Virus record (IMG/VR): IMGVR_UViG_3300028581_000271
Location: 1 to 22,096 of that record
DNA length: 22,096 nucleotides
Strand: one strand, 5' to 3'
Source: a virus
The notes under the pieces were generated by a model. The model was not told the DNA's origin, did not search any database, and worked only from the letters and a program-made list of their open reading frames with translations. Below, piece after piece: positions 3,181 through 21,832 of this stretch. The first letter of the stretch is position 1. Every line of letters begins with the position of its first letter. The translations under genes were made by a program, and so were the position numbers.

Positions 3181-3189
3181 GTATTTACC
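3181..3189 (-). promoter_or_regulatory. Late-promoter-like motif GGTAAATAC upstream of the 428-aa fibre gene
   Basis: The minus strand of the 47-bp gap between the 202-aa and 428-aa genes reads GGTAAATAC, with TAAATA ending 19 bases before the ATG. The same core sits 18 bases before the gp6-like ATG. T4-like phages use late promoters of the type TATAAATA, and related shorter cores are reported in marine relatives. A second candidate, CATAAATA, lies at 3207-3214 across the stop of the 202-aa gene. Sequence evidence only. Confidence 0.4.
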
Positions 3190-3209
3190 GCAAAGTAATA
3201 TGCTCATAT

Positions 3210-3980: not shown

Positions 3981-6900
3981 TTATAGTCCCCGTAAAAACC
4001 TTGCAGCTGGTGTATTGGTAATTTGGAGTGGATCTCCGTTACTAGCGGTAGTGGCGCCTGGTGCATACCATGTGACTCCTCTACGTACTAATATTGTAAC
4101 CTCAACTCCCGACGGAGGAGCAATATCAAAGGATATAGTTACCGGATTATTGGCAATAAATGTATATCCATTGGTTATTGAACTATCGTTTGATTGATAT
4201 ACCCGTATGCCACCTACATACACTTCTACGGTTTCATCAATTATAGTACTATCTTCAAATTCTGTGTTTATATTTACAGCGGTAAATTCTGTAGTAGATC
4301 CGTCGCCCAATGTACTGTCGCTAACTATGTAATTTTGATAGTCTACTGGCAATAAATTTCCTCGTCCTATATTATACACTATGGAACCAGTGCTATGTGT
4401 TGTAATTGCAGTGCCGGCAGTACCTCTTAATAGCCCACTAATAGTATTATCAACGGTGTTTCTTTCACGATACATAATACGCTCGGCATCAATAGTTACC
4501 ACACCCCAGGCATTAACATCAAAGTTTGGTTCTGGAAGTGCAGATGCATCGGCTACATAGATTATATCATCAGTAATAGCCACAGGGTCGGTGGTAACAG
4601 TTGTTGTGTTTGGTGTGATACGATATGTGGCCTGTATCTCGCGCATGTCTTGGAATATGCGGAAAGCCATGGCCTCTGGAACCACAAAATTTGTAAACTG
4701 GGTAATCATAACCACATCGGTTGTGCTTAGGACGCCAGATGATAAAATCACCTCAGTGCCGCTTACTGTAAATCCTGCGTTATTAAATAATCTACGACCA
4801 TTTAATGATACCCACAGGCGATCAGGATCGGTTATTACTACTCCCATGTCAAGATTGTTTGTTGTTATAACAATACCAGAACTGTAATCAAAACTTCCAG
4901 TATCGCCTGTTATTGTACCTATATCAAAATCAGTGCTGTCGTATGCCTCGACTACAGTAACACCAACTGTAACTGGTCCTACAAAACATTGACTCAATAT
5001 TTTTTGTTGACGGGTATCATTCCAGGTTGTTGCAGCAATAATATCTCCAAGCCCAGGAACAAGTCCGCCGCCTGAATTGAACACCAACTGATTGCCATTT
5101 ACATAACACTGTGTATCAGTTGTTACATAGATTAAAATTTCTGAACCAAATGCAGGTTCTGTAGAGAATATTACTTCTCGTGGAGTGCCATCATATGGTT
5201 CTACTACAAAGTCTACACTTAAAATCTGCGCGACGTCGTTGACATAAACGTGTACCTGGTTGTCGGCAATTATAGACTGACTAAATCCTAATCTGTCTGG
5301 CAAGGTGTAGGCAGTACTGCCATCACCCACATGCCGTATACCGGCTGCGGTTCTAGCACGGACACCGTTGACTGTAACTATTAAACTATCTGGATTTACA
5401 TAGATTAAACTATTATCCAGAGTAAAACTCAATGTTGAGCCAGTACCGGTAATTATCTGTGTTTGTGGGGTGCTCCAGCTATAGTTAATAGCGGTATCGG
5501 TAACGTCTATTACTGTTGGCGCCAATACATATAATGTAATACTATCAGTATCTGTGTAGGTTGTATCAAAGGTAACTGTGGTTGCGTGGTTGCCTGTGGC
5601 CGCATAGGTATAATCGGTGGTTATTACGCCATTGACAAAAATTACAAATTCTTGAATTTGTGGCGTAGTTCCGTCAATCTCATAATAGTCCACTGGTACT
5701 GTGACCATATTGCCTACTTCTGCACCATTGTAGATATTTTTGTAAAGTTGATTTCCGCCGCCGATTTCGTATGCAGTAATTATTATTATACCTCCGGCAA
5801 GTGTGTTACCGCCCGGAATAATGTTCACGGCTTGAGCAACATAATCTACCGTGTAATCTGTACCCAACTCTAAATCTATATTTTGCGTTTGGTTGGATAC
5901 AAATACCAATGCAGTGTAGGGTAACACGCCAACAAAGCTCATTGATAATTCTGTTAAATCTAACGTATATTTAATTACAGCACTAGGGAAGCCATGGCCG
6001 CGTTGCAACCAATCTGCTCCAGGACGTGTATACACACGAAGGTCTAAAGTATCAAATTCGCTTCCTGGGATTAATTCTTCAGGAGCATGGCTACTAAACA
6101 CATCTATATAGCCGCCGCCGTCTACATTAATATCGGTGGGTCTGGTTCCTAAGTATGGGTCTAGATATGCACTAGAGTAGCGGGCATCTAGTATCGATTG
6201 GTCATACGTTGGGCGACCTACTTCGTCAACAGAGAAATTATCAAATGGGTTAATATCATAATTTCCAACGTCAAATCCGGTGTTTTGACTAAACGTTGGG
6301 GCGGTAACTTGTACTCCGGGATAATCAATGCCATCTATTAACAGTGGTAAACTAAGCCCTGGCATATTTGCTGTAGGGGTGTAGAATCCCATGGTGCGGT
6401 CTGCGCCGTTTAACGAATCGGCGTCAACTTCAGTCCATGAGGTAATATTAAATGTTGCAGCAGATTGTGTACTATTAGATGCCCATACGCGATTGTTCCA
6501 ACGTACTTGTTCGTCAGTGACATATACTACATCAGCTTGCCATTCATAAATGGTGCTAACATATTCACAGCGATCATATTTGATTGTTGTTTTAATCGAC
6601 CGTACTAGATCGTTGCCCATGTGTGCCACAGCAGCAGCACCAGATCCATTACCGCCTGTGAATGTAATTGCAGGTGTGGTACTATACCCAGACCCGGGGG
6701 TGACGACAGTAATTAATACCACCAGGCCTGCGCTGTTTATAGTTGCGGTCAGTTGTGCTGGAGTTATGCAATCTCCGGTTATTACCACGTCTGGAGTCAC
6801 TGTGTATCCGGTGCCGCCGTTGGTTACCGTAACTGATTGGCAGCCTAACAAATAATTATTGTACCACTCACTCCATGGTCTCTCCAACCAAATTTGTGCG

Positions 6901-9900
6901 GTAGCATCTGCATCGCTGTTAAACGATTGGTCTACACTGCCGGAATAGGTATATGGTGTTAGTATTGGGCTTACAAACTGTGGAAAATCTAAATCAAGAT
7001 TCCAATATGCAGGAACATCGTAGTCAGTTAATGCGCCCGCGAATGTGTCTATGCCATCATAGATCAAATTAAATGCCAGGGTCTGTACGTGATACGGCTT
7101 AACCTCGCCAAGATAATCTAATACAAACGTCTGGTTATCCGGTTGATATAATTGATACGGCAGGAGTCCGCGGATCACGTGGTCTACATGAATGTAGCTG
7201 GTCTTGACTAACCAATGTGGGCTGGTGAATTCACTATAGATAAACTGGAATACCAACATTAAAGATTGGTTACGTTCAATTAATAGATCGTCAATGAATA
7301 ATTCTTCGTTGATAGCTTTTATAATTTGGCGAGTCTCAATCACAGGCTCTTGATCAAAATACTGTGCATCAAATACTTCTGTATCAAAGCCGTAGCCGCC
7401 TAACTGATAATTCCAAAGCACCTCACTGAACTCAATGGTACCATCTTCAAGACCAACACGATCCCACCCAGTAAGGCTGCGCAGGTAAATTTCAAACTTG
7501 CCCTGGCCATTGGCCGTGACTTTGACACTGCTGCCAACTGGTGCAGTAGTTAAACTTAATGTCTGCAGCCCTGCGGTATTGGCCACAGTAGCCACGGGCT
7601 GTATACTATTATTATATCCAACGCGATACCAGTTGATATAACTCCAGTACAACGGTGTATCGTAGTTTTGTACCCGAACTAAATTTAATATTAGTTGACC
7701 TGGTAACGTGCCTTGAGCCACTTCATAAATGGTCCAGCGACCGCTTTGGTCGGCATCTGATAATACCAAATATTTGTAACCGATAGGAACCAATGCAAGA
7801 TCTTGATATGATAAAATTTCAAGTGTGGCTACCTCATAGTTCCAGGCACCGGTATCGGCGGCTGGTGTAGGTTCACTACTGTTTAACAAATTAAAACTAC
7901 GGGTCTCACTAATTGGGTATTGTGCCAACACTGTATTGGCCCGGCCTAGATAATTTTCCAAGGCCTTGAAGCGATTAATAAACATGCTTTGGCGTGGACG
8001 GAATTGTACACCGTGTTGCATGCCAGGGCTTAATAATGGATCTGGTACGGCTGCGCCTGTGGTAGTTGCTCCACACAAGCTGTCTAGTAATTTGCGATAC
8101 AAATTGGCATCTAAGAATGCCTCGGCTTTGCCGTCGGCAATAAACGCATATTCAGTATGGATGTTGTTGTCGCCACCAATGGCCTGACGATCATATTCTA
8201 CATGTAATATAGTATCAGAGGCTGACAATAACGTGTTGGCATTGTATATGGCTATGGCATTGGCAGTTAACGCGGCTATGTAAGGTAGTCCACTGCCTGC
8301 TGGATTTAAAATATAACTAGCAATAGCCGTGGCGCTTAGAGTTTTTCCAGCTGCGGTTACCACTGTGTTGATTCCGCGTACCCAGAAAAAATAGGTAGTA
8401 ATTAATAGACCTTGATTGTCGATTGAGGAATGTACGGTGTAGTTAGTGGTACTAAGCGGAGCTCCGGTGCCGGCATAATTAACTGGTGGAACAGAACTTG
8501 CAACCCACTGGTAGATATCAATGGTACTACCTGGGAACACTTGGCCCCATCTGCGACTAGCATAGATTATGTTGTCTTGGTTGGCATCAATAAATCTAAC
8601 TGAATTAGTATCCCACCAGATTTCACCTTCGTGTGCTGGCCCCCAACTGGTGCCTATATTATGCACAGAACCAGTGTTATAACTTGCTGGATCAACAGCG
8701 CCAATAAAATCAATATTTCTGCGGGCAACACCTAAAATTTTGCCTTGTAGTGGATCAATGTAATCAAAATATGTTTGAGTACTGTTTAACAACTTGTCAT
8801 ATGAATAAACAGAATTAATAAGATTTACATCCACCATTGGTTGTTGAGTATGGATTACGGTCCACACTGGAAGATCGTTGGGATTATCAAATACACTAAC
8901 ATCACCATCAAACACAATACCTTCATAGCCTTCTATAAGTTCAATGCCAGGAGATCCAATAACCACACGATCATTACGATAATCTACAGAGTATCCAAAC
9001 TCATCTCCTACTTCCATGCCATCATTATATAATTGTTGGCCAAATACAAACTTACCCGGGTTGGCTAAAGAATTATCAGAACTTGGTAGAGAATCAAATG
9101 TGTAGGCAACGCCACTGTTTACTATGGTTGTAAAGAAGGTTGTGCTGCGCTCATCAAAATAAGTTTGGGCATCGTCAAATGTAGTTGGCTTATAAACAGT
9201 TCCGTTTGGAGAGCCAACAACTAAATTTATAGCGGTTGTGTTAATCTTAAGAGATTGACCAAAATAAGCATAGTCTGTAGGGTTAGGACTAACAATGGTC
9301 TGCGTGTAAGCATAGGTTGTAAATCCAAGGTCATAAAATGCTGACCCGATGGTACTACCATCAGCAGTTACGCCAGGCAACACTGTAAGTTTGTTAAACA
9401 CTGTCGCAGCGACGCTGTTAATTACGTTGACTGTCATGCGGCCAGCTACTACTAAAATTGTAGAGCCCGCAGTTGGCGCAGAGACAAATGCAATTTGTTG
9501 TATAGCATTGTTATAGGTATAATCTACATTGGCTGTTTGTAAGACGTCGTTGACATAGACCACTGTGGTATATGCTGATGCAGATGAGTAAATATTTCCA
9601 ATTTCAAATAGTTGTGTAACTCCATCGCCGAATAGATATACATCCGGGGTAGTTGATGCTATAACGTTAGATATATTAGCAGCATTGATCGCATCCACAA
9701 AACCGGCCACTGTGTTATCTGGAGACAATGGTACGGTTACTTCTATGTTGTTGATGCGTAGGGTATCGCCGGAGGTTAATACAGGGTTGGCCACTGTGCT
9801 GGTTGTTATTCCGTAAATTCTAGACTGGTTTACTTGACGTTGTACCATACCCGCTTGAATTATACCTGTGGCATAGGAATCAAGTGGCGCTCCAATATAT

Positions 9901-12900
9901 ACACTACAATTATTAGGGCAAATATCCACAGCTTGACCAAAATCAGCCTCATCAAATACAGTGTCGGCTATGCATTTTTGTATAAACTGGAATTGATTAG
10001 TTTCGATTTCTAAAGTATCACCTATGGTCAATGTTATTGAGCTAGATAATATAATAGTTGACCCGCTTACAGTAAACTGACCATCGATATATTGAGCGGT
10101 GTTGGTTAAGTATTGATTATTTAATATCACTGCCACAGGATCTGTATAGTCTCCGGGGATGCTGTAGCTTAATTGTTCAGCATCGGTGATAATGTACTCG
10201 ATTACGCTGCGATCAAATGCATACACCGCGCCAGCATTGGCAATAATATCACCATCGGCATTAGGTGCACTATCATATGGTGCACCGGCTAGGATTTGTC
10301 TACCTAGACTATCGGTAGTAATGCTGTTGCCAAGTCTGGCATTGGCATCAACCTCAATGGGCCAATAATTATTTGTAAGAGAATCTACATACTGCCAATA
10401 AGCTCCGCCTACTCCAGAGTTAACTATGATTACCGCGGCTGCCGCAGGAACAGTAATAAATGTAAGGGTTCCACTGCTAAATGTGTAGTCAATGTAAGGG
10501 CGTTGTAACACTCCATTGACTATAACTGTAAACGAATCGTATGTGGTAGCGGTATACAAATAATCAGTTAACAAAAATACCGCGGTATTGTCTACTCCGC
10601 TGCCAATCCAGGTAAATCCAGTAATGCCGCCATCGGTGACCTCAGTTACAGTAATGGTAATATTATTGGCTGCACTTCCTGAAGGATCAATTTGTGTGTA
10701 GTCAATGACTACATCGTTGCCAACGGCATAATTAATACCAGGAGCTGTTAGGCTAACTGAATAATTTCCTCGGGTATTGTTTACAGTAAATGTAGCACCA
10801 GACCCGGATCCTGTGGTGCTAGATTGAATTACTCCTTGGTATGTAGTAGAATCTAGCTGAACTGATGCTCTCCGACGAATAGTTATTATGTTATTAGGTG
10901 GTGGTGCGGATATAAACTGAACCATAGTTCCGGAGAGGGTATAATCTACGCCATATGTTTGTGCGGTATTATTAAAGGTTACCAACAATTGCCCAGGATA
11001 GGCAAAATCAATCATAATACTATCACTATAGTTAAACGCATAGGTAATGCCATCTGTTACATAAGATGTATATTGTTCTGGCACATCAACTCGACCATAG
11101 GCATATATTTTGTTGCCAGCCGGTGCTGTAATATACATCCACCGCTCGTCATCGCTTATTTTTACTGCTGATCCAAATTCTATTGCACTAAAATCCTCGT
11201 CTGGAGCTACTAATAACTGTGTTTGTACATACTCGTTGGATCCTGGTACTAGGTATATTACTGTGGCATATCCTGCAGAGGAATTACTGGCACTGGCGCC
11301 AGCCACGGCCCAGGTTGCATTACCAAAGTCTGCACTGTTACCATACCCTACTGTGTCTGTTGCTGAGAGTTGTAATTCTGTGTTTTTTACATATCCAACA
11401 TCGCTACGACGATATGTGTATAATATTCCCAAACCAGAATCTGACGCCGGAGCTCCAATTAATAAACTATAATGGTTGGCACTCTGAGATATGCTGAGTC
11501 CGAACAACGAATCTTCTTGAAGAGGCTCTTGAGATATCAGTTGAGCTGGTGTAAACGGATTTTGTTTTTCTATAACTTCCCATTGTCCTGAGCCATTATT
11601 ATCAACCCATGCAGTCGCACCTGGTACTAATCGAGTGGCGTACGGCAAGTTTCCGACATCGCTGGCTTGGCTTACACGCATGGTCTGCAGATAAAATACA
11701 ATGCCAGTGCCAGTAAGTGTGGTTTGGTTGGAGTTGGTAAATTCGTATTGAATAACCACCGTGTCAATAGTAGGCCTACTTAATACACGATACACTCCAT
11801 CTACCGCTGTGTCAAAATAACGAATAATTATTAGATCGCCTACTGCTAGAGTAACTGTGGTGCTAAACTGAGCACGGCTAGTACCGTTAAGGTTATCTGT
11901 TAACTGTGTTAATCGGCCCGGTACCTGGTCGCACTGATAAATGCCCCAATCGTAACTATTGACCTGTGCCACCCAAATTTTAGTACCATTACCGACGGTG
12001 CTCAAGTTTGCAGCAATGGCCGAAGGATTATCAAGATTGAATACTGTGATGTCTACCTCATCGATATTGACATAACCAGCTGTGGGCAATGCGGTATCTA
12101 GATTTCTAGAATAAGTTGTGGACAATATATCAGTATTAGGTATGGCATAACTTTCTGCCCAAAGATTACTTAATAATATAGATTGCTCGGCTAAACTAGG
12201 TTCACCAGGCTGAATAATTTGCACTGTGCTAGGGTTACCGGTTAGTACTGACTCATTGAGGGCTATTTCAAACCAACTACGATTGGCTTGTGCGCCATAT
12301 GTACCGGCCAATATCCCCCAGTTTTCATATATGTTGTATTGGCCTGCTAGATTATTGAAATTAACCTCGGTAAACAAGTTTGTGGCCCGCTTACTACCGG
12401 TGGTCTTAATAAATTGTTGGTAAAGGTTAACTTGACTAGTATCACTTAGATTTAAATCAACCATGTATTGTCTTGGTCTAAATCCAATTAGGCCAAATGC
12501 CAACAGATCATTGTCATTATTAAGATTAGCAGTTTGTGTATCATAGCTATTGGCCAATTGATCAGCCTTGGTGGCTAAGTTTTGTAATAAACCTTGTTGT
12601 ATAAGGGCGTAATTACTCTTATACCAATCAGCATATTCAAAGGTAGTCTTGGGTTGTATAATAGTCGATGCTTGCCAATAATTGTTTTTGTAAATAACAA
12701 TATCGCCCTTGGTGTATTTGGTATTGCCTTTCCATGCTACTACATTATCTTGATTTAAGATAAAGCCCTGGGCATTTAACGTACCATCCCACTGGGTTGA
12801 AGTAGCCGCACTTAATTTGAGACGATTTTGTCTCTCGGCTGTGATGGTATTATAGATTAGGTCATTGAAGATTGTAGTGTTGTCCAGGACAACCATATCT

Positions 12901-15900
12901 TCGTAGTCGGTAAATTTTAATTGTAAGTAACTAATGGTATGGCCACCGCCAGCCCCAGGTCTGAGAGTAAACGTGTTTCCTTCTCGACGTATGATCAAAT
13001 CTCTAGCATTTAGTGCCTGGCGGTTTTGATCCAACACTAGATTTTCTGGAGTGTAGGTTACAATAGAATCTACTACCGCTCCGGCCTTGAAGGATACAAC
13101 CTGAGTTGCCGATGGATTCAAATTAATAATAGTGCCGGCTGCCCAGCCTTGGTTAGCAAAGTACAGGAACTCCTGGGCCATTTGTATCCAGTTTAACGTA
13201 TAGTTGTTTTCTTGCGCAGTAAATGTAAGACCTTGGCTGGTCAGGTATTCACCGTAGCTCAACAAGAAATCAACCACGCCGGCTAAGTTAGTAAAGGTGT
13301 ATCCGTAGGGTATTTGTGCGGTGCGGTTGGTATATTGAGTTGGCACAGTCACTGAAATATTTCCACCAGTAAGGGTTTGTGTAAGTCCTGTTACCTTGCT
13401 GGACAATATAGAAAAATACGGATCAGAGGTACTATACCCATACACACTGTAGCCACCCTCGACTACTTCCACAATCACAGCACTGTAGTTTATACGGTTA
13501 AACGGCTGATTTTTATACAATAATAAATTGTAACTCTCTTGAGGGATCAACTGGCTGGCGTTTTGACTCTGTGGTGCGCTCTTTTCCAAGTACATGTTTA
13601 GATTTTGTTGCGCCACAAACGATGCGGCACGATAGCATAATCTTACATCGAGATTGGCCAAGTCGGTAGTCAGCGCATCTGTGCTATCAATGCCCAACTG
13701 TTGATTATAATCCACAATCCAGTTAATATAACTGGCCTTGCTAACACCGTTGCCATATACTTGAATATTTTGTGGTTGTATTCTATAACGACCGTTGTAG
13801 AGATATTGATCTAGGTCGGCATCGTATTTGTATAGATCGCGGTCGGCGAACAAACTAAAGAATTCTGCTGGACGAGTTAAAAGCAGTAGGCGCATAACAG
13901 CAAACGGATAGCTGCTGCTCATCCACCATGATGCTTCTACCGGGCCGCCGTCGCCTACCGCCCAGCTCTTAACAAAGCCTTGTGGATTGTATGCACCAAC
14001 CACACTGTATAAAGGAGATACCAATTCGCCTTGGCCGTCTACAGGAATAACTGACGTTAGCCCTGGGCGGCGATATTTAGGTATAACATATGGTGCAACA
14101 GGATCTGCTACTAAGCCAGCCTCTAGATCGTCCCATAGAACTAAGTTATCACTGGTGTATGGGGTAGGACCATATCGATCAGTCCACCAAGTAGGCATTT
14201 CGCCAAAGCCCAGCATTTCCCATGGTGTAAGATTAGGAGTTAAGGTATCATAGAACCAACGATAGATACCTCGCCATGCACCTAACAACGGCGTATTATC
14301 AAGTCTGTTTCCAGCCTGGCTGTAGTTCCAAGTAAATTCATTGTCGGCTATATAGGTCTGTGCTGTGTAATCTAGTTTGTTTGCGCCAACCCAGGCTAAG
14401 AAATTTTCTCCTAGGATTTGATTAATTTCTGCTTGTGTATAATCTGTAGTGCGGAAGTAGCCAGGAATTACGTCTTCGGCTACCAATGGAGGAGGGTTGC
14501 CATCGTTTTTAAGATTATTAAATATTCTAGTTTCAAATTCTAATAATACATTATCGCGTATGTCTCCAAAGGCCACAGTAATCGATCCATCGTGACCCTG
14601 TATCACCTGGGTAGGATTTACATAATCGTTATCCAAGAAAATCGTTGGTTCATATTTAGGATACAGACCTAACTTGGTAGGTGTGTTGGGTACAAAGTTG
14701 CCGGCGGTATCTGAATATTCATTAATAGTAACCACATCGCCGGTTGCCAATGGTGCAAGAACAGTTAGTGTTGGGCCTTCGGTAGACACTGTATAGCCAT
14801 CGCCGCGGGTCAACAACACATTATTAATATAAACGCATAAACCTAAATAATTTGATTCAGTAAAGTTGTAGGTTTGTACTGTGTTAAATCTGTTGGTAGT
14901 TATAGGATTAACTGTGTAGGAATTTGATATGAACGTTGTGCCGGATGGCACCATGTCACTCCAATAAAATGAATTTAGATTTGTGCGGCCCGCTGTAATT
15001 TGTGCCATACTAGCATCTAGTAATTGGGCCACGGTCCAATTACCGTACTCAGCAATGCCAAATGTCGTTACAGCATTTAATAACTGTGACTTAAATTTAA
15101 TATATTCTGTACTGTTATAGGCCAACGAGGCAAAAATATTATAATTGGCATCGCGCATAAAATAACCGGTTAAGGTCAATGGCGAACTTTGTTGTAGAAT
15201 CTGCAAACCGTAGGGACCAATGTTGCCTAAGTCTCTAGTATTGTTGGCTCCGATTACCGGGCCTGACAAATTAATAAGATTTTGTGCAATGGTACTATAA
15301 TGATTGCGTATGGTTCCCAGCGTGAATTGCTCACTGTTGCCGTTCAATGGGTTATTGGCCAGGTTAATAGGAACTTCGTAGAATCCTTGTACACTAACTT
15401 GGTCGCTGAGCACTGACAATTCGATCAAGGTGCCCAACTCATATGTGGTTAATAAATTAATTGTAGTTGTATTGGTGCCCACAGTATACTGATAATTATA
15501 AGATTCCTGGAAGGCGCCATTAGCAAACATCTGTATAGCCGGCACGGTGTTGTTTGAATTAACAGCCACGTCTAACAATAGAGGACTACCAGCATAGGTA
15601 AACTGAAATTGTTGACGAATCAAACTAGGGGTAACTGCTGTCTGCCAACCAATCTCTCGGTCAAAGGTAACGCGAGTACTGTACTGGCGTACAAATCCTG
15701 TACTCAGTGCTATAGTCTGTCCAACACTATTAGTGGTATAATTAAACGAATCTACGTAAAAATTGTTATCAAAAACAATATCACCAATGTTGGTCAAACT
15801 TAGATAGGTTAATGGGAATCCCAACACAAGATCTGGCGCGGCATCGCCAATGGCGTAGCTAAACAACGGATTGCCTGTGAAGTTTGAGCTAGGGTATACT

Positions 15901-18428
15901 GCTCTATCACCAAAACTAATTCCGTTGGCATCATAGATATCAAACAACGGTGGCTGGTTTACACTAATTTTTTGTTGAGCATTAATCCAATTTACACCAT
16001 CATAATAGTACGAAAGTCCTTGTTGAGTGGCTCCATTTAAAATAACCACGGTCTGATCAATTAATGTAGTTCCGTCTGTGACAGGCATTAACGCAATTAT
16101 AGGTTCGGGAATTAGCGGCGGAACAGTGTCGGGAATAATAAATTCTACTCTGTAAATTGTTTTACGTACTTCTGGATCCGAATCTCTGGCAAAAATAATT
16201 GTGCTTCCGTTGATTAACGTGTATCCGTCGGTACTGTACCCAAGAGATCCGTTTACATTACTCAGTGCATCGCCTTGTGTAAAATCAATAATGTCTACTG
16301 CTTGTTTACCTTGAGTACCAAAATTAAATAAACGTGTACCTGCACGATATTCTAAAATTGGTCTGCGGGCACGGAAATTATTATCTAGCACCGGAGTAAC
16401 ATTATTATATTCAGCACTAGCAGTAATCACATCAATATGGAACCACCGATTGCTACGAGTCCATGCGTTCAGATCTGGGCTAGCACGATTAATAGTTAGG
16501 TAGTCCGGTACCGTGGGTTGACTTAAAAACCCATCAAACGTGAATGCATCGTATGGTGCAAAATCGTATGGAATTGTTTGATTATTTGTATAGGTTTCTG
16601 GAGTAACGAAATCAGTAACCGGCAACAATTGTATTGCAGTGCCTACCCCTTCTACATAATATTCATTGTTTCGGTATGAGGTAGGATAAACATTGCCACG
16701 GAATACCACTTTCATGCCGTTGGTAAATGTTACTCCATTAGGACTACTATAAGTAGAAGATCCTAAGATATCGTCAACATTAATTGTAACCGACATGTCT
16801 AGATCTATTACACGAATTTGTCCAAATATTTCTGGATCTGTGCCGTCTTGATAGAACAGCAGATTTTTATCAGCAGTGAGCAACGGAATTTGACTAAAGA
16901 ATCCGGAGGTATCTTTGTACCACCCTGTACTAGAATATTCGGCGCCAAATGCAACTGTAAATTTATTTTCAAGGTCTACATTTTGTACAAACTGTAATGA
17001 CATATAGATCCCACCACCGCCTTCGGCAGTTAGATACTGTATGCGCCATACACTATACTGTGTCGCTGGATCTGTAATGTAGGTAGTCTGGTCATACTCC
17101 ACAGAATCATAAGATCCAGGGCCGCTTTCTACATTGCCTGCATTGAGTAGTGGGTCAAAGAATGTAGTCTGTTGCCAGCCGCCGGTATCAGGATCTGAAT
17201 TTTGCGTAATAAACGCTATGGTACGATTTTCTAAATTTGTAATTCCATCAATTCCAGTAGGATTGGCTGTAAAAAATGATTCCACAAATTGATTATTGAT
17301 CTGGTCAAATTGTAAATCTGTAAGCAAGTCCACTGTGCCAATGCTAGGCATGTTGTAATAAAAATTCTGTGCTGTAGCCAATGGCACATCAAATGTAACT
17401 GTGCCTAAATCTTCTCCGTTATTGGTAACTCCTAATACATCTCTACTGCTAATATTAGGTGTAGTAGGAATGCGACCGTTGATTCCTGGATCAGTTTGAA
17501 TCCAAAATCCTGGGCCGGTACCCGGAGTACCATCAATAATAGTAAATTGCCCACGTAGATTAAATTGTACATCATTACAATAATATAATGTATCAGGAGC
17601 ATCCTGGGGTACTGTGAATGTAATTAGGCCAGCACTACCACCGTTGTTAAACACACCATTAGAGTAGATATTAGTAGTACCAAAACTAAGTTCGGTCTTG
17701 ATGTAAAATGCCCAGGGAAAGGACTGTGACAAATCGAATACATAGGTGTTGCCTCGAACCAAGGTTAATGTTGGGTTGGGCTGATAATCGATATTCCATG
17801 AGCTGGTGTCATTGTTGGTTACACGAAAATTTTGAGTTTCTGTAGAATTCTGTGCTACATTAAAAGTATAACTACCACCACGTACTAGTGTAAGTGCTGG
17901 ATTATTGCCGGAGACTCCGGAGAAAGTATATACGCCGTTGGCTCGAGTTACTGTAAAGCTATCGGTTAGTGGAACCCCGGTGGCGGATACATCTACCGCT
18001 AGAGGCCCACCGGGAATCCAATAATACTGTGCATAGTTTACAAACTTGTCAAAATCAACAAACGGGTCCCAGGTGTAGTAGTCACTGGTATAAAGGGTAT
18101 CACTGTTGTCGGTAATAGCACCCTGAAGTGACAGTGCATCATTAATACCAGGATAAGTTATAGCGTCAACTATACGACGTGTGTCAGTTGGATCCGTTTG
18201 TATTACTCCTGGTTCCAACTGATAATCTGTGCGAATTTTAGTAGGCTCAACAACATAGCTATCATTAGCATTGACTCCGGGGCCGACTCTGCGTCCAATA
18301 AAACCTTGTGTTTGAGTAAACTGTGGATTCTGGATCAGTTGATCCAGTGTGGCCGACAGGAACTGCTTGTTAACTGGTGTTTGAAATATCTCTGGCAGGA
18401 AATCTACACTGCGTAGTTGCTTGGCCAT
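3981..18428 (-). CDS. Giant baseplate/fibre-type virion protein, 4815 aa
   Basis: One uninterrupted frame, starting where gp6 ends (TAATG, one base shared) and occupying the place of T4 gp7. Residues 1-142 hold a conserved start (VDFLPEIFQTP, DYYTWDPFVDFDKFVNY). Residues 177-298 hold two LTLVRG beta modules of cupredoxin type lacking copper ligands. Residues 1250-1680 carry blocks I associate with large virion proteins of aquatic T4-like phages: VIQGHDGSITVAFGDIRD, PTWWTDRYGPTPYTSDN, YPFAVMRLLLLTRPAEFF. Around 1897-1938 is a carbohydrate-module-like WKGNTKYTKGDIVIYKNNYW. Residues 2303-3183 hold seven FG-GAP-like blades with inserted domains. Later blocks are GEIWWDT and WGQVFPGSTIDIYQW, LGEVKPYHVQTLAFN (about 3775), paired GTGY and GSGY modules (3867-3936), SSHAPEELIPG (about 4110) and an ERIMYRER...GLLRGTAGTA module (4618-4685). 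It ends with a WYAPG/AARFLRGL tail. About ten VNGV...DYT sandwich modules are scattered through it. It is cytoplasmic until virion assembly; no signal peptide. Confidence 0.9.
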   Translation of the reverse strand: MAKQLRSVDFLPEIFQTPVNKQFLSATLDQLIQNPQFTQTQGFIGRRVGPGVNANDSYVVEPTKIRTDYQLEPGVIQTDPTDTRRIVDAITYPGINDALSLQGAITDNSDTLYTSDYYTWDPFVDFDKFVNYAQYYWIPGGPLAVDVSATGVPLTDSFTVTRANGVYTFSGVSGNNPALTLVRGGSYTFNVAQNSTETQNFRVTNNDTSSWNIDYQPNPTLTLVRGNTYVFDLSQSFPWAFYIKTELSFGTTNIYSNGVFNNGGSAGLITFTVPQDAPDTLYYCNDVQFNLRGQFTIIDGTPGTGPGFWIQTDPGINGRIPTTPNISSRDVLGVTNNGEDLGTVTFDVPLATAQNFYYNMPSIGTVDLLTDLQFDQINNQFVESFFTANPTGIDGITNLENRTIAFITQNSDPDTGGWQQTTFFDPLLNAGNVESGPGSYDSVEYDQTTYITDPATQYSVWRIQYLTAEGGGGIYMSLQFVQNVDLENKFTVAFGAEYSSTGWYKDTSGFFSQIPLLTADKNLLFYQDGTDPEIFGQIRVIDLDMSVTINVDDILGSSTYSSPNGVTFTNGMKVVFRGNVYPTSYRNNEYYVEGVGTAIQLLPVTDFVTPETYTNNQTIPYDFAPYDAFTFDGFLSQPTVPDYLTINRASPDLNAWTRSNRWFHIDVITASAEYNNVTPVLDNNFRARRPILEYRAGTRLFNFGTQGKQAVDIIDFTQGDALSNVNGSLGYSTDGYTLINGSTIIFARDSDPEVRKTIYRVEFIIPDTVPPLIPEPIIALMPVTDGTTLIDQTVVILNGATQQGLSYYYDGVNWINAQQKISVNQPPLFDIYDANGISFGDRAVYPSSNFTGNPLFSYAIGDAAPDLVLGFPLTYLSLTNIGDIVFDNNFYVDSFNYTTNSVGQTIALSTGFVRQYSTRVTFDREIGWQTAVTPSLIRQQFQFTYAGSPLLLDVAVNSNNTVPAIQMFANGAFQESYNYQYTVGTNTTTINLLTTYELGTLIELSVLSDQVSVQGFYEVPINLANNPLNGNSEQFTLGTIRNHYSTIAQNLINLSGPVIGANNTRDLGNIGPYGLQILQQSSPLTLTGYFMRDANYNIFASLAYNSTEYIKFKSQLLNAVTTFGIAEYGNWTVAQLLDASMAQITAGRTNLNSFYWSDMVPSGTTFISNSYTVNPITTNRFNTVQTYNFTESNYLGLCVYINNVLLTRGDGYTVSTEGPTLTVLAPLATGDVVTINEYSDTAGNFVPNTPTKLGLYPKYEPTIFLDNDYVNPTQVIQGHDGSITVAFGDIRDNVLLEFETRIFNNLKNDGNPPPLVAEDVIPGYFRTTDYTQAEINQILGENFLAWVGANKLDYTAQTYIADNEFTWNYSQAGNRLDNTPLLGAWRGIYRWFYDTLTPNLTPWEMLGFGEMPTWWTDRYGPTPYTSDNLVLWDDLEAGLVADPVAPYVIPKYRRPGLTSVIPVDGQGELVSPLYSVVGAYNPQGFVKSWAVGDGGPVEASWWMSSSYPFAVMRLLLLTRPAEFFSLFADRDLYKYDADLDQYLYNGRYRIQPQNIQVYGNGVSKASYINWIVDYNQQLGIDSTDALTTDLANLDVRLCYRAASFVAQQNLNMYLEKSAPQSQNASQLIPQESYNLLLYKNQPFNRINYSAVIVEVVEGGYSVYGYSTSDPYFSILSSKVTGLTQTLTGGNISVTVPTQYTNRTAQIPYGYTFTNLAGVVDFLLSYGEYLTSQGLTFTAQENNYTLNWIQMAQEFLYFANQGWAAGTIINLNPSATQVVSFKAGAVVDSIVTYTPENLVLDQNRQALNARDLIIRREGNTFTLRPGAGGGHTISYLQLKFTDYEDMVVLDNTTIFNDLIYNTITAERQNRLKLSAATSTQWDGTLNAQGFILNQDNVVAWKGNTKYTKGDIVIYKNNYWQASTIIQPKTTFEYADWYKSNYALIQQGLLQNLATKADQLANSYDTQTANLNNDNDLLAFGLIGFRPRQYMVDLNLSDTSQVNLYQQFIKTTGSKRATNLFTEVNFNNLAGQYNIYENWGILAGTYGAQANRSWFEIALNESVLTGNPSTVQIIQPGEPSLAEQSILLSNLWAESYAIPNTDILSTTYSRNLDTALPTAGYVNIDEVDITVFNLDNPSAIAANLSTVGNGTKIWVAQVNSYDWGIYQCDQVPGRLTQLTDNLNGTSRAQFSTTVTLAVGDLIIIRYFDTAVDGVYRVLSRPTIDTVVIQYEFTNSNQTTLTGTGIVFYLQTMRVSQASDVGNLPYATRLVPGATAWVDNNGSGQWEVIEKQNPFTPAQLISQEPLQEDSLFGLSISQSANHYSLLIGAPASDSGLGILYTYRRSDVGYVKNTELQLSATDTVGYGNSADFGNATWAVAGASASNSSAGYATVIYLVPGSNEYVQTQLLVAPDEDFSAIEFGSAVKISDDERWMYITAPAGNKIYAYGRVDVPEQYTSYVTDGITYAFNYSDSIMIDFAYPGQLLVTFNNTAQTYGVDYTLSGTMVQFISAPPPNNIITIRRRASVQLDSTTYQGVIQSSTTGSGSGATFTVNNTRGNYSVSLTAPGINYAVGNDVVIDYTQIDPSGSAANNITITVTEVTDGGITGFTWIGSGVDNTAVFLLTDYLYTATTYDSFTVIVNGVLQRPYIDYTFSSGTLTFITVPAAAAVIIVNSGVGGAYWQYVDSLTNNYWPIEVDANARLGNSITTDSLGRQILAGAPYDSAPNADGDIIANAGAVYAFDRSVIEYIITDAEQLSYSIPGDYTDPVAVILNNQYLTNTAQYIDGQFTVSGSTIILSSSITLTIGDTLEIETNQFQFIQKCIADTVFDEADFGQAVDICPNNCSVYIGAPLDSYATGIIQAGMVQRQVNQSRIYGITTSTVANPVLTSGDTLRINNIEVTVPLSPDNTVAGFVDAINAANISNVIASTTPDVYLFGDGVTQLFEIGNIYSSASAYTTVVYVNDVLQTANVDYTYNNAIQQIAFVSAPTAGSTILVVAGRMTVNVINSVAATVFNKLTVLPGVTADGSTIGSAFYDLGFTTYAYTQTIVSPNPTDYAYFGQSLKINTTAINLVVGSPNGTVYKPTTFDDAQTYFDERSTTFFTTIVNSGVAYTFDSLPSSDNSLANPGKFVFGQQLYNDGMEVGDEFGYSVDYRNDRVVIGSPGIELIEGYEGIVFDGDVSVFDNPNDLPVWTVIHTQQPMVDVNLINSVYSYDKLLNSTQTYFDYIDPLQGKILGVARRNIDFIGAVDPASYNTGSVHNIGTSWGPAHEGEIWWDTNSVRFIDANQDNIIYASRRWGQVFPGSTIDIYQWVASSVPPVNYAGTGAPLSTTNYTVHSSIDNQGLLITTYFFWVRGINTVVTAAGKTLSATAIASYILNPAGSGLPYIAALTANAIAIYNANTLLSASDTILHVEYDRQAIGGDNNIHTEYAFIADGKAEAFLDANLYRKLLDSLCGATTTGAAVPDPLLSPGMQHGVQFRPRQSMFINRFKALENYLGRANTVLAQYPISETRSFNLLNSSEPTPAADTGAWNYEVATLEILSYQDLALVPIGYKYLVLSDADQSGRWTIYEVAQGTLPGQLILNLVRVQNYDTPLYWSYINWYRVGYNNSIQPVATVANTAGLQTLSLTTAPVGSSVKVTANGQGKFEIYLRSLTGWDRVGLEDGTIEFSEVLWNYQLGGYGFDTEVFDAQYFDQEPVIETRQIIKAINEELFIDDLLIERNQSLMLVFQFIYSEFTSPHWLVKTSYIHVDHVIRGLLPYQLYQPDNQTFVLDYLGEVKPYHVQTLAFNLIYDGIDTFAGALTDYDVPAYWNLDLDFPQFVSPILTPYTYSGSVDQSFNSDADATAQIWLERPWSEWYNNYLLGCQSVTVTNGGTGYTVTPDVVITGDCITPAQLTATINSAGLVVLITVVTPGSGYSTTPAITFTGGNGSGAAAVAHMGNDLVRSIKTTIKYDRCEYVSTIYEWQADVVYVTDEQVRWNNRVWASNSTQSAATFNITSWTEVDADSLNGADRTMGFYTPTANMPGLSLPLLIDGIDYPGVQVTAPTFSQNTGFDVGNYDINPFDNFSVDEVGRPTYDQSILDARYSSAYLDPYLGTRPTDINVDGGGYIDVFSSHAPEELIPGSEFDTLDLRVYTRPGADWLQRGHGFPSAVIKYTLDLTELSMSFVGVLPYTALVFVSNQTQNIDLELGTDYTVDYVAQAVNIIPGGNTLAGGIIIITAYEIGGGNQLYKNIYNGAEVGNMVTVPVDYYEIDGTTPQIQEFVIFVNGVITTDYTYAATGNHATTVTFDTTYTDTDSITLYVLAPTVIDVTDTAINYSWSTPQTQIITGTGSTLSFTLDNSLIYVNPDSLIVTVNGVRARTAAGIRHVGDGSTAYTLPDRLGFSQSIIADNQVHVYVNDVAQILSVDFVVEPYDGTPREVIFSTEPAFGSEILIYVTTDTQCYVNGNQLVFNSGGGLVPGLGDIIAATTWNDTRQQKILSQCFVGPVTVGVTVVEAYDSTDFDIGTITGDTGSFDYSSGIVITTNNLDMGVVITDPDRLWVSLNGRRLFNNAGFTVSGTEVILSSGVLSTTDVVMITQFTNFVVPEAMAFRIFQDMREIQATYRITPNTTTVTTDPVAITDDIIYVADASALPEPNFDVNAWGVVTIDAERIMYRERNTVDNTISGLLRGTAGTAITTHSTGSIVYNIGRGNLLPVDYQNYIVSDSTLGDGSTTEFTAVNINTEFEDSTIIDETVEVYVGGIRVYQSNDSSITNGYTFIANNPVTISFDIAPPSGVEVTILVRRGVTWYAPGATTASNGDPLQITNTPAARFLRGL
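8870..11520 (-). other. Seven FG-GAP-like propeller blades with inserted modules inside the giant protein
   Basis: Seven segments follow the pattern FG-x-S/A-V/I ... hydrophobic-G-A/S-P ... short aromatic strand, as in integrin-type propeller blades. Their starts are LFGLSIS (residue about 2308), GYGNSAD (2358), EFGSAVKIS (2415), RLGNSIT (2694), DFGQAVDI (2826), YFGQSLKI (3054) and EFGYSVDY (3139). Six have a recognisable GAP/GSP-type strand: IGAPASD, VAGASAS, ITAPAGN, AGAPYDS, IGAPLDS, VGSPNGT, IGSPGIE. Blades 1-3 are contiguous. Beta-sandwich or other modules are inserted after blades 3, 4 and 5. Seven is the usual blade number for this family. No clear calcium-binding DxDxDG loops are visible. 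Confidence 0.65.
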
Positions 18429-21400
18429 TAAATTACCCCGCTGCCAGGAGCAGTTTGTAGATTGGTACTAGTCAAGGCCGTAATAACTTCCACGTCATTT
18501 ACTGTGGCCCCATTAACAAAAATTTGATTAGGAGCTGATCTAATTTCATATAAGTCACCAAAACTCTTTTGTGTGTCTAGGGGAACTAATACCACACTAC
18601 TGACTACGGAGCCAATATTTTGATGTATGTACGCGGCCAGCTCACTAAAATAGAAAGTATCTCCAAAATTCCAGTTGGCAATATCAAAATACGCATTCAT
18701 ACTGGCCACTACTGAGTTCTTAATGGCGCTGACACTGGCAGTACTGCCACTCGCTCGAATAACCTTGATTGTAGCTCGGAGGGCTGCGTCGGCCTTTTGT
18801 CCAAATAATGGTTGGAAATCTACACTGTTAAGAATCATATTATCTGATATCATTTTATAATTTTGTAAACCTTGGTAAGCAGTGGTTAATTCATTGATTG
18901 TTTCTGGCGCAGGTTCTACTACAGTGCCAGTGGTATCTTGCAACCAGTTAACATAAGATCTATAGTATGCATTGGTTACCACGTACACGTCGATAATATT
19001 AGTTGATCCAGGATCGATTCTATTAGTCAATGGACTATTATGGCGATATTGGAAATACAAATCTTGCCGACCCACCTTGGCCTGATAGCTGTTAGAAACT
19101 GTTAATACTGGGTTGTCTAGGCTGTCTACCCCTAGGATGTAAAATATCTGAATTGAGTAAGCATAAAATACTTGTCCAACGACATATTGTGTCTGCACCG
19201 CTTGTATATCTGCCAAGGTTGCATAGTTGCTGTTAACTATGTCGGCTTCTATTAACAGATATCGTTGTAAATTATCAAGGTCAACTGTGGCTTGAAAAAA
19301 CACATATTTTTGATTGGCATTAATTGATGGTGCTACCAAGTCGTTAAAGAAATCTGGATTAACTGGTGTTAACCCGCCGCCAGAGGTGGTAAAACTAACC
19401 ACGACTTGGAAATCATCCACCAGGCCATCACTAAGTACTGGCTGATCAATAATGGTTAATATATTATCAGAGCCAATCGGGGTAGCGGTATCGGGCTGAC
19501 TGTTAATTTTTAACACATTAATGTAATCACGAATTACTGTGCCAGTTCTACTATCGTAGATAGGATCGCTTGTGTAAAAGAAAAATCTTGTTTGTAGCAC
19601 ACTGCCAAAATAATATTCCAGCGATCTTGAAACTACTGTATATGTTGATCCACTGTAGGTGCACTGTATTAACCAGCTGGCATCAATATTAGTACCCGAG
19701 GTATTTTGTGCATTTGTTAAACTGAATGCAGCGTCTATTGCAAGATTGGTTGAAGTAATAACATACCAAGTATCAGTGAGATTATTATAGCCTAGGCCAA
19801 AATTTTGATTAAGCGAAATTTGTTCAACAACGCTTTGTTGCACACTGGTAGGAATATCCGTGGTAAACAATGGGATAACCAAGATAGGAATTGCACCAGT
19901 TGGAACAAAGGTGTTTAATACCACAGGACCAACACCCGATGGCAAGTTGCCCAGGCCTTGTGCTGTACCTGATAGATAAACGGCTGTAGGGCTGGCCCAG
20001 ATTGTCAGCTTGTCTTCTGCGTTTACAGGTACCCCTACTACCAAATGATTATCTTGATCAAAATACTGGCCACTGGGTGCTGCAAATTGTACCAAGCTAC
20101 CTTCCAGTATATATTTGGTGTTGTTGCTGGCATAACTGCCAATAGGTACCGGATTGCCCAGGGAATTTTCAAAGTACCCTGTGGTCTCGTTAGTAATCAC
20201 TGTGCTTTGGTGCCATGTATAGTTTAGGACGGCCAGGGTAGGCCGTGGAAAATTAGCATAATAAAACTGTTGTAGGCCCGCTCTAGTAGCCAATGGATTA
20301 ATCTGATTAATTACAGCATCTGAAATATCATTTGCAGTTAGCCAACTAAATTGAAAGGTGTATAGGTTATTAGATTCATATAATGCTCCATCACTGGAAA
20401 AAATATTAGTGCTGGAATATTTGCCTGTGCCATCGACCAGGTCAAGGTAACGACTGGTACCGATACTGGCACGATTTACTGCGGTGCTTTTGAGAATACT
20501 GTTATACTGTGTAAATGGAAAGTTGGTATAGTCTTCACCGTTGACCATACGATTCTGTGTGTAATATTGTGCTGGTGCACGTTGTTTAATTTCAGCGATT
20601 GTCTCACGTGCCTGGGCATTAGTCACAGGTTGTGTAATACCACAGGTAAATGTCATAGTCTCAATTTGACCAGTACGACTTACATAGCTGATAGGTATAC
20701 TCACATTTTGCATTTCTATCGGATTAATAATATAAGTTAGACCATTACTGGCTCGTACATACGTACGGAAAGTGCCAACTGGGATTGTGCTGAATATTCC
20801 ATCGCCAAAGTTTAAAGTAATCTGATCGTTGGTTCTACTGGCCACACTGTAAATATTTCTAGTGCCTGGAGCTAGTTGCTCCACCGCAGCGGCGTAGACA
20901 CTTTGTACTTGTTCCCAAAAGGTCGAAACATTACCTAGGTTGTCTAACTGATAAAGCCAGACATCGGTGTTGTTAATGCCTTCGATGTTAATGGCCACAG
21001 CACGATTATCGATGCGCTCTGCCAAATTAAAATCTTGATTTTGTAATACTCCTTGCTTGAACAAGAAGAAAAATCCTGTGTTGGCACTGAGAAATCCTTG
21101 TTGGTCATTGCGGAACATTACATTAAACTGACCATTGGGCAATGGCGTTGGTTCGTACACATAATCTCGACCAGCAAAGGTACTGTTAACCACTTCAAAT
21201 GGCATGTTTACTGTGTCTACGGTAGCGGTATACGGAATTACTGGCAAATACCCTGGTACTAAATTAATAGTATATTCCTGAGTATCAACTCCTAGAATCG
21301 TTTGCTTTGCACCAGGATTTCCAAATTTTTGTGTGTTGACTAAACTAGCATTAAGGATAGTGGTGAACTGTTCTTGCCAATCTAAGTTTGTAGGATCTGC

Positions 21401-21832
21401 CCAATTTACAGTAAGGTTAGCAAGGTTGATGCCGTTGTAGTCAACAAGATTTTCTGTAGTTGACACGGAAAATACTTTGAGATATCCTGATGCTTCTGTG
21501 TTACGATTAGGCGTATAGCTAACTAAATTGGCCAGACGTACTACACTATCTCTGCGCTCGGCAGTGTCTAAATAATTTTCACGTGTGTTTAAATCAGTGC
21601 GGAATGCTAAACTTTGTCCCATAAAGGCCATAACGTCTAACAAGGCAATAAATTCCGAGCTTTCAATATAATCGTTAAAAGTCTCAGGATAATACAGGCG
21701 CAAGTAGTCTACAAAACTCTTACGCAGAGTTTCAAAATCATAACTCTGGAAGTCAGCTTCCTGGTAAGTCTGATAGATTCGTTTCCAATCTTCGACGCCA
21801 AAAATCGCTGTTTGTCTTGAGGTTGTGGCCAT
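18428..21832 (-). CDS. 6: T4 gp6-like baseplate wedge protein, enlarged (1134 aa)
   Basis: Gp6 forms the central dimeric clamp of the T4 baseplate wedge. The N-terminal 120 residues have the family hallmarks: DFQSYDFETLRKSFVDYL (27-44), YIESSEFIALLDVMAFMGQ (55-73) and ENYLDTAERRDSVVRLANL (85-103) followed by VSYTPNR. A further gp6-type block, MVNGEDYTNFPF, lies near residue 430. The C-terminal region (990-1134) contains NSVDFQPLFGQKADAALRA and FGDTFYFSELAAYIHQNIGS, matching the dimerisation end of gp6. T4 gp6 has about 660 residues, so several hundred extra beta-rich residues lie between the conserved ends, roughly 450-990. AGGA lies six bases before the ATG. The gene follows the gp25-like gene with a 45-bp gap and shares one base with the next start, matching the gp25-gp6-gp7 order of T4. 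Confidence 0.93.
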   Translation of the reverse strand: MATTSRQTAIFGVEDWKRIYQTYQEADFQSYDFETLRKSFVDYLRLYYPETFNDYIESSEFIALLDVMAFMGQSLAFRTDLNTRENYLDTAERRDSVVRLANLVSYTPNRNTEASGYLKVFSVSTTENLVDYNGINLANLTVNWADPTNLDWQEQFTTILNASLVNTQKFGNPGAKQTILGVDTQEYTINLVPGYLPVIPYTATVDTVNMPFEVVNSTFAGRDYVYEPTPLPNGQFNVMFRNDQQGFLSANTGFFFLFKQGVLQNQDFNLAERIDNRAVAINIEGINNTDVWLYQLDNLGNVSTFWEQVQSVYAAAVEQLAPGTRNIYSVASRTNDQITLNFGDGIFSTIPVGTFRTYVRASNGLTYIINPIEMQNVSIPISYVSRTGQIETMTFTCGITQPVTNAQARETIAEIKQRAPAQYYTQNRMVNGEDYTNFPFTQYNSILKSTAVNRASIGTSRYLDLVDGTGKYSSTNIFSSDGALYESNNLYTFQFSWLTANDISDAVINQINPLATRAGLQQFYYANFPRPTLAVLNYTWHQSTVITNETTGYFENSLGNPVPIGSYASNNTKYILEGSLVQFAAPSGQYFDQDNHLVVGVPVNAEDKLTIWASPTAVYLSGTAQGLGNLPSGVGPVVLNTFVPTGAIPILVIPLFTTDIPTSVQQSVVEQISLNQNFGLGYNNLTDTWYVITSTNLAIDAAFSLTNAQNTSGTNIDASWLIQCTYSGSTYTVVSRSLEYYFGSVLQTRFFFYTSDPIYDSRTGTVIRDYINVLKINSQPDTATPIGSDNILTIIDQPVLSDGLVDDFQVVVSFTTSGGGLTPVNPDFFNDLVAPSINANQKYVFFQATVDLDNLQRYLLIEADIVNSNYATLADIQAVQTQYVVGQVFYAYSIQIFYILGVDSLDNPVLTVSNSYQAKVGRQDLYFQYRHNSPLTNRIDPGSTNIIDVYVVTNAYYRSYVNWLQDTTGTVVEPAPETINELTTAYQGLQNYKMISDNMILNSVDFQPLFGQKADAALRATIKVIRASGSTASVSAIKNSVVASMNAYFDIANWNFGDTFYFSELAAYIHQNIGSVVSSVVLVPLDTQKSFGDLYEIRSAPNQIFVNGATVNDVEVITALTSTNLQTAPGSGVI

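Follow-up and report, generated by a model that had tools for sequence, protein, structure and literature searches.

A seven-bladed FG-GAP-type propeller with inserted all-beta modules predicted in a giant virion protein of uncultured jumbo phages

Known propellers of integrins and phages

The FG-GAP propeller has been defined by seven blades of four strands each, with the FG motif in the first strand and the GAP motif in the second; in metazoan integrins and a bacterial set, the loop between strands 1 and 2 of some blades holds a DxDxDG site for calcium (PMC3192720). Among phages, the passages of PMC4901313 on propellers name phi11 Gp45, PRD1 P2 and PhiKZ gp131C. PhiKZ gp131C (PDB 4GBF) is a seven-bladed propeller at the baseplate periphery of a jumbo myophage and a suspected receptor-binding domain there, as we propose for the propeller reported here. 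However, it is described as a C-terminal domain, and those passages (PMC4901313) mention no inserted modules in it. In Staphylococcus phage phi11, the beta-propeller of Gp45 acts as a host-binding platform on the baseplate, which is similar to our proposed role, but Gp45 is a homotrimeric receptor-binding protein with five blades, a stem and a tower, and the same passages report no nested inserts (PMC4901313).

The propeller in this study shares seven blades, FG/GAP motifs and the whole-domain fold with the integrin alpha propeller (PF01839/PF14312). It differs in having no DxDxDG, in bearing modules in three of its 3-4 loops, and in being embedded in a phage baseplate protein with no integrin stalk or beta subunit. 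The sequence-only reading knew of no described phage protein of such a design. Our literature search likewise found no phage protein described with nested, exchangeable propeller inserts, although phage propellers as such are known.

The giant virion protein and the origin of the propeller

The main features of the window, i.e. the whole stretch of 22,096 nucleotides that was analysed, are as follows.

3981..18428, minus strand: P0001, giant virion protein of 4815 aa (open reading frame and phrog_10938 match)
18428..21832, minus strand: P0002, gp6-like baseplate wedge protein of 1134 aa, directly upstream of P0001
11583..18428, minus strand: N-terminal scaffold of P0001, residues 1-2282 (conserved across cultured jumbo phages)
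8844..11582, minus strand: predicted FG-GAP propeller of seven blades, inserts included, residues 2283-3195 (AlphaFold2, Foldseek to integrin alpha)
3981..8843, minus strand: C-terminal scaffold, residues 3196-4815, of which 3196 to about 3810 are conserved in cultured relatives

P0001 comes from an uncultured lineage of jumbo T4-like phages and is a very large virion protein associated with the baseplate. By sequence it belongs to phrog_10938, a virion structural protein family (4.9e-288), and full-length relatives of about 4150-5350 aa occur in many contigs. P0002 matched phrog_10646, a baseplate wedge subunit (3.4e-281), and phrog_219 (3.2e-23). The order of gp6 followed by the giant protein, found here and in relatives, equals the T4 6-7 order. 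Members of phrog_10938 (GAP32, PA5oct, 121Q, RaK2, CBB) have a scaffold colinear with that of P0001 and the same position after gp6. The family is a virion protein by mass spectrometry; the PA5oct homologue was detected by ESI-MS/MS. In the virion proteome of phAPEC6, the 382-kDa gp245 adjoins the baseplate wedge gp244 (PMC7247149). T4 gp7 also lies directly after gp6, but it has about one fifth of the length of P0001 and the likeness is one of position only. As a homologue of P0001 it was rejected, with an hhalign probability of 0.3 or less and no detectable sequence similarity.

Profiles of the N-terminal scaffold matched PA5oct, SCTP-2, Atu_ph07, Phosso, Vibrio 2.275 and GAP32, and a search of PDB sequences with the two scaffold profiles returned one insignificant match for one and none for the other. 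The six cultured phrog_10938 members examined have no propeller at this place; the stretch that stands there instead is unlike it and measures about 45 to 1050 aa. By these sequence comparisons, the propeller itself is an insertion into the conserved scaffold at about residue 2283. When 50,697 records of cultured phages were searched by tblastn with the propeller region, no match was obtained at 1e-5 and short chance-level matches only at E up to 10. In bacterial and archaeal genomes we obtained 12 pattern matches, none of them a relative, and thus no prophage or bacterial source was found.

A single metagenomic record of 22 kb might be suspected of being an assembly chimera, or a chance joining of unrelated ORFs. 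We give this practically no credence, because it is refuted by independent contigs: the same architecture occurs in more than 300 viral contigs, several of more than 300 kb, with 135 distinct sequences over the propeller region.

The predicted propeller and its inserts

Seven FG...GAP-type units lie in frame, at residues 2309, 2366, 2418, 2701, 2830, 3056 and 3144 of P0001, and the AlphaFold2 model has four antiparallel strands in each of seven repeats. The count of exactly seven blade motifs made from the sequence is therefore borne out. So is the reading of this part of a phage structural protein as an integrin/FG-GAP-type propeller into which all-beta modules have been inserted. Its limits are nearer to 8844-11582 than to the 8870-11520 given for it. 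The blades and inserts of the model are located as follows.

11373..11495, minus strand: blade 1, strands A-D, residues 2312-2352 (model and profile comparison)
11211..11336, minus strand: blade 2, strands A-D, 2365-2406, degenerate motif (model and profile comparison)
11085..11165, minus strand: blade 3, strands A-C, 2422-2448 (model and profile comparison)
10404..11084, minus strand: insert in the C-D loop of blade 3, 2449-2675
10863..11084, minus strand: VNGV-DYT sandwich 34a, 2449-2522, of the family of 34c and 56b (hhalign 97)
10587..10862, minus strand: NYAVGNDVVI module 34b, 2523-2614, which about half of the relatives lack or have replaced
10404..10586, minus strand: VNGV-DYT sandwich 34c, 2615-2675 (hhalign 98 to 56b)
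10377..10403, minus strand: blade 3, strand D, 2676-2684 (AlphaFold2 model)
10203..10322, minus strand: blade 4, strands A-C, 2703-2742 (model and profile comparison)
9999..10202, minus strand: insert in the C-D loop of blade 4, 2743-2810, a sandwich weakly like the others
9972..9998, minus strand: blade 4, strand D, about 2811-2819 (AlphaFold2 model)
9828..9929, minus strand: blade 5, strands A-C, 2834-2867, with a conserved CxxxC in the A-B loop
9315..9827, minus strand: insert in the C-D loop of blade 5, 2868-3038
9654..9806, minus strand: flagellin-IN-like domain, first half, 2875-2925 (Pfam Flagellin_IN in a relative, below cut-off)
9435..9653, minus strand: VNGV-DYT sandwich 56b, 2926-2998, inside the flagellin-IN-like domain, lacking in half of the relatives
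9315..9434, minus strand: flagellin-IN-like domain, second half, 2999-3038
9294..9314, minus strand: blade 5, strand D, 3039-3045 (AlphaFold2 model)
9030..9254, minus strand: blade 6, 3059-3133, with a long B-C loop that varies very little in length
8844..8990, minus strand: blade 7, 3147-3195 (best FG-GAP_2 stretch and model)

The similarity to FG-GAP families expected by the sequence-only reading was found with Pfam FG-GAP_2 (PF14312), which matched this region of the window at 2.6e-10, with a score of 40.8 where the cut-off is 23 bits and with its best stretch at residues 3139-3161. Each of the 20 relatives scanned was matched too, the strongest at 6.6e-23. In profile-profile comparison of the blade cores, 14 of 21 pairs reached probabilities of 90-98 and one further pair 63, while no insert scored above 20 with any blade. 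Blade 2 is degenerate, with a clear profile match to blade 1 alone (94); some other GAP motifs are degenerate as well, and a count of GAP motifs by regular expression is an undercount owing to gap columns and was set aside. The DxDxDG calcium site was found in none of the 135 sequences in any blade, and hence we regard the domain as an FG-GAP_2-type propeller, not one of the metazoan-integrin type.

The propeller was modelled with similar confidence in the window (pLDDT 89.1, pTM 0.88) and in a compact relative (pLDDT 89.7, pTM 0.89). In Foldseek, the compact relative matched whole integrin-alpha propeller chains with TM 0.60-0.62 by propeller length over about 800 columns (9dia_A, 449 aa, 0.62; 9ckv_A, 446 aa, 0.62; 4wk2_A, 448 aa, 0.61). 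The window model reached TM 0.37 at best by target against integrins, because its long inserts break the superposition; against a 411-aa Harvfovirus protein it reached TM 0.73 over 912 columns. PhiKZ gp131C was not among the best 50 PDB matches of either model, and the propeller profile matched integrin alpha-M alone, weakly (0.02), among PDB sequences. The value of 0.37 would suit seven repeats that the inserts interrupt, leaving an arc that is open or split. We consider such an arc very improbable, since the compact relative has the same blades and resembles complete seven-bladed integrin propellers, with a pTM of 0.88-0.89 for the two models. The models thus support the earlier proposal that the seven blades close into one ring, where closure is read from the fold matches, the strand order and pTM.

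The inserts named by that proposal, i.e. VNGV-DYT sandwiches, a NYAVGNDVVI module and a flagellin-IN-like segment, are all present. They had been placed between the blades; in the model they occupy the C-D loops (third to fourth strand), and they lie within blades 3, 4 and 5, as each of these blades has its strand D after the insert. Nesting occurs twice: module 34b lies between sandwiches 34a and 34c, and the T7-fibre-like sandwich 56b splits the flagellin-IN-like domain. The latter is so named because Flagellin_IN (PF07196) gave 0.002 and 18.7 bits in relative L024, against a cut-off of 22.7. The T7 tail-fibre N-terminal domain (PF03906) matched the VNGV-DYT sandwiches in two of 20 relatives (best 2.7e-5); in T7 this domain is a fibre anchor, whereas in P0001 the sandwich is a repeated insert module.

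Variation among relatives and the proposed role

Module gain and loss were counted in the 135 distinct sequences, with presence scored at a 40-residue cut. Both 34b and 56b are present in 62 and neither in 59, and a single one of them occurs in 8 and 6. On the scaffold tree, 34b must have changed at least 7 times and 56b at least 3 times. The absences are clean in many relatives, and for the most part the blades keep a constant length. The window and its near relative L014 differ in both modules, and the form in L022 is naturally poor in modules. Some phages have a CBM5/12-like module within the flagellin-IN-like domain (PF02839 gave 20.3 bits in L105 against a cut-off of 26.2, hence the name), or a TDF-GTGTA module that replaces 34b or occupies the D4-A5 loop.

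We therefore propose, as the reading we hold to be the more probable, that the inserted propeller is a baseplate-mounted platform that displays exchangeable modules to the host surface, its role in adhesion being inferred. Sequence and prediction show the seven blades, the match to complete integrin-alpha propellers, the points of insertion, and modules that come and go on an almost constant blade frame. An integrin/FG-GAP-type propeller has entered at the one scaffold point, and its consecutive blades 3, 4 and 5 carry small all-beta domains, some with nested domains, in their 3-4 loops. Held rigidly on the baseplate wedge, it may turn these modules to the host cell, so that during adsorption they could attach to polymers of the cell surface, which are probably glycans. 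The phage might then alter its binding by module exchange and leave the baseplate undisturbed.

Propellers can also be glycan-acting enzymes, and the CBM-like modules of some relatives would fit a domain that attacks surface polysaccharide as an enzyme or depolymerase. However, the matches, by fold as well as by sequence, fall in the integrin/FG-GAP class and not among sialidase or lyase propellers, and profile searches of P0001 and its relatives found no catalytic family, so that an enzyme seems highly unlikely.

Mean entropy is 1.0-1.6 bits in the blade strands, 1.6-2.0 in the loops, 1.35-2.2 in the inserts and 1.26 in the scaffold. Conservation of the propeller and inserts is thus moderate, and they are not hypervariable as in many receptor-binding tips. 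When the two faces of the propeller were compared for conservation, no difference was seen (A-B 1.63, C-D 1.99, B-C 1.91, D-A 1.99), and therefore no binding face was assigned. The moderate conservation, the cultured relatives without a propeller here and the sub-cut-off CBM5/12-like stretches were counted against an adhesion platform.

The propeller might instead be an internal scaffold whose inserts dock tail fibres or neighbouring wedge proteins without host contact. The gene position next to the baseplate wedge, the conservation of inserts 56a and 56b near the scaffold level, the nearly constant length of blade 6 and the presence of VNGV-DYT modules in P0001 outside the propeller too are consistent with this. 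However, two modules that are cleanly absent in places and were gained or lost several times are hard to reconcile with an obligatory docking site, and the whole propeller is missing in cultured relatives. We consider an internal scaffold rather unlikely.

If the platform reading is true, jumbo phages gain a host-contact device other than a fibre, a propeller in a baseplate protein whose modules project from the equivalent loop of three adjacent blades. More tentatively, the four levels of nesting (baseplate scaffold, propeller, flagellin-IN-like domain and fibre-type sandwich) could form an evolvable pegboard for host recognition, in which loop modules rather than tail-fibre tips are exchanged. 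The relatives form a natural series in which each module is present in some members and missing in others and the loops that hold modules vary; in such a series the effects of single domains on phage binding are testable. They also offer a clear example of domains inserted within domains, and the intermediate states have survived. In three relatives a sandwich module occupies the D2-A3 loop, the same loop in which integrins carry their alpha-I domain.

Gene setting of the giant protein

The window is a single IMG/VR virus record of 22,096 bases. In it, the 4815-aa ORF P0001 starts at the last base of a gp6-like wedge ORF (18428), and both genes have strong family matches:

18428-21832, minus strand: gp6-like baseplate wedge protein (phrog_10646, 3.4e-281)
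3981-18428, minus strand: P0001, 4815-aa ORF (phrog_10938 'virion structural protein', 4.9e-288)

In T4, gene 7 follows gene 6, and P0001 holds the same place after the gp6-like gene; because sequence similarity between T4 gp7 and P0001 was looked for and not found, we claim only a gp7 position. The N-terminal half of P0001 matches giant proteins of cultured jumbo myophages (PA5oct, SCTP-2, Atu_ph07, Phosso, Vibrio 2.275, GAP32, 121Q, RaK2 and others). Of six cultured phages inspected, five have an annotated baseplate wedge gene, or a gene of the same wedge cluster, directly upstream of the homologue; the sixth, SCTP-2, is unannotated. The PA5oct homologue was detected in the virion by ESI-MS/MS, according to its database record. 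A homologue is also encoded by phAPEC6, whose virion proteome includes a 382-kDa gp245, numbered next to the baseplate wedge gp244 (PMC7247149). As judged from sequence comparison, P0001 belongs to a virion-protein family at the baseplate.

The category of phrog_10938 is 'head and packaging', yet the gene adjoins baseplate wedge genes, and the label is probably wrong. Residues 3864-3951 (window 6576-6839) match phrog_460 'head closure Hc2' (4.3e-8), probably through a shared GTGYT-type module, which has seven or more copies in the homologues from Atu_ph07 and Phosso, partly at the site of the propeller in P0001. A CBM5/12-like stretch lies in the scaffold, the parts flanking the propeller, at residues 1898-1920 (window 12669-12737; E 0.019, below cut-off), and a similar W...GD/E...V stretch was seen by eye near residue 3970. 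Window 1876-3162 encodes a 428-aa fibre-like protein whose C-terminal half weakly matches Peptidase_G2 (0.005, below cut-off).

The propeller and its place in the scaffold

The sequence-only reading had counted seven blade motifs and expected FG-GAP similarity, and both were borne out. Residues 2309-3160 hold seven FG/GAP-type units, and Pfam FG-GAP_2 matched the window protein and all 20 relatives scanned (best 6.6e-23). Profile comparison linked the seven blade cores mutually, with a degenerate blade 2 tied mainly to blade 1, and no insert exceeded probability 20 to any blade.

An AlphaFold2 model of residues 2278-3230, made with 68 relatives, had a mean pLDDT of 89.1 and a pTM of 0.88, with four strands (A-D) in each of the seven repeats. 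L022, a relative with fewer inserts from a 316-kb contig, scored 89.7 and 0.89. By Foldseek, the L022 model matched complete integrin-alpha propellers across about 800 columns, with a TM (normalised by target length) of at most 0.62; the window model matched integrins at E of about 1e-7 with TM of at most 0.37, a low value because the long inserts break the superposition. Among viral proteins, the window model reached TM 0.73 across 912 columns with a Harvfovirus protein of 411 aa. From these scores and matches, we take the predicted propeller to be, most probably, one closed seven-bladed ring, and we hold the architecture of a propeller with inserts to be very probable. None of the blades in 135 sequences has the DxDxDG calcium loop, which PMC3192720 describes for integrin blades and for a set from bacteria. 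Blade 5 has a CxxxC pair (DICPNNCSVY) in its A-B loop (residues 2834-2847; window 9828-9929), kept in 131 of 135 relatives, which may be a disulfide or metal site unique to that blade.

The scaffold on both sides of the propeller is colinear with cultured jumbo phages, in which the intervening sequence differs.

Sequence between the matching scaffold parts
GAP32: about 45 aa
PA5oct: 96 aa
Vibrio 2.275: 126 aa
SCTP-2: 400 aa
Atu_ph07: about 1050 aa of other repeats

No FG-GAP was found in the C-terminal halves of these five homologues, and a whole-genome FG-GAP_2 search found none in PA5oct, SCTP-2, Vibrio 2.275 or GAP32, and in Atu_ph07 and Phosso only in other genes. A branch of the tree separates all 135 sequences with a propeller from the cultured ones, a result to be read with care given the long outgroup branches. 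The propeller itself is an insertion into the scaffold. Viral contigs often carry relatives, with 406 confirmed in one scan and 314 in another; several of these contigs are longer than 300 kb, and a search of bacterial and archaeal genomes found no relative.

Positions and turnover of the inserts

The inserts had been placed between blades 3-4, 4-5 and 5-6. The inserted modules are present, but the model locates them inside blades 3, 4 and 5, where the insert comes after strands A, B and C and before strand D.

Strand D in the model
Blade 3: residues 2676-2684
Blade 4: residues about 2811-2819
Blade 5: residues 3039-3045

Since strand D follows the insert, all three share the predicted 3-4 (C-D) loop in three consecutive blades. 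According to PMC3192720, an integrin blade has its 1-2 and 3-4 loops at the calcium end and the FG-GAP/Cage motif at the other.

The blade 3 insert is a NYAVGNDVVI module (34b) flanked by two VNGV-DYT sandwiches. In blade 5, a third such sandwich (56b) interrupts a flagellin-IN-like domain, whose match falls below the Pfam cut-off, giving nested levels of scaffold, propeller, flagellin-IN-like domain and sandwich. The three sandwiches form one family (hhalign 97-98), also found in P0001 at 1177-1236 and 4324-4433, and in two of the 20 relatives scanned they resemble the N-terminal domain of the T7 tail fibre.

Among 135 distinct relatives, at a length cut of 40 residues, 62 had both 34b and 56b, 59 neither, eight only 34b and six only 56b, counts which are not frequencies in nature because the sample was biased by its two source searches. 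Most blade lengths vary little across the same relatives. Five sequences positive for 34b at this cut (L024, L162, L184, L187, L188) have about 61 residues at the site, and in L024 and L162 this stretch is a different module; the tree analysis, with a cut of 80, therefore counts 65 relatives with 34b. On a tree built from the flanking scaffold, propeller excluded, at least seven changes were required for 34b and at least three for 56b. The closest relatives of the window differ in these modules, and L014 among them is without both.

Other modules are found in other phages. A TDF-GTGTA module replaces 34b in L024 and L162 and lies between blades 4 and 5 in L019. A CBM5/12-like stretch occurs within the flagellin-IN-like domain of L043, L109 and L105, and by alignment of L100, L148 and L150 (best Pfam E 5.6e-4, below cut-off). 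In L148, L177 and L186, a sandwich module lies between blades 2 and 3, in the D2-A3 loop (roughly region residues 130-200), which is also where the I domain sits in those integrins that have one.

Proposed function and other FG-GAP proteins

We suggest that the propeller may serve as an adhesion platform on the baseplate, where displayed inserts would bind host-surface polymers. We lean slightly towards this adhesion function given the FG-GAP class, the CBM-like modules, the turnover on a nearly constant frame and the known host-binding propellers on phage baseplates; PMC4901313 describes phi11 Gp45 as such a propeller and PhiKZ gp131C as a suggested one. Moderate conservation counts against adhesion, and in the main competing reading the inserts would be docking sites for fibres or wedge proteins.

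Propellers of the FG-GAP class and propellers in phages are already known. In the open-access literature, we found no report of a phage baseplate protein with an FG-GAP propeller, nor of such a propeller with nested exchangeable inserts, in agreement with the earlier remark that no described phage protein with this design was known.

FG-GAP proteins of other kinds occur in cultured relatives. Sinorhizobium phage Phosso has 42 FG-GAP_2 matches, most in two adjoining giant 'hypothetical proteins' of about 3160 and 3690 aa (PV764938.1 48338-68978), and more FG-GAP genes near 92-94 kb. In Atu_ph07, the 'hemagglutinin' gp320 (NC_042013.1 243018-244199, 393 aa) has FG-GAP_2 repeats and adjoins tail sheath genes; it is a separate propeller-type protein in a phage whose baseplate protein is without FG-GAP_2.
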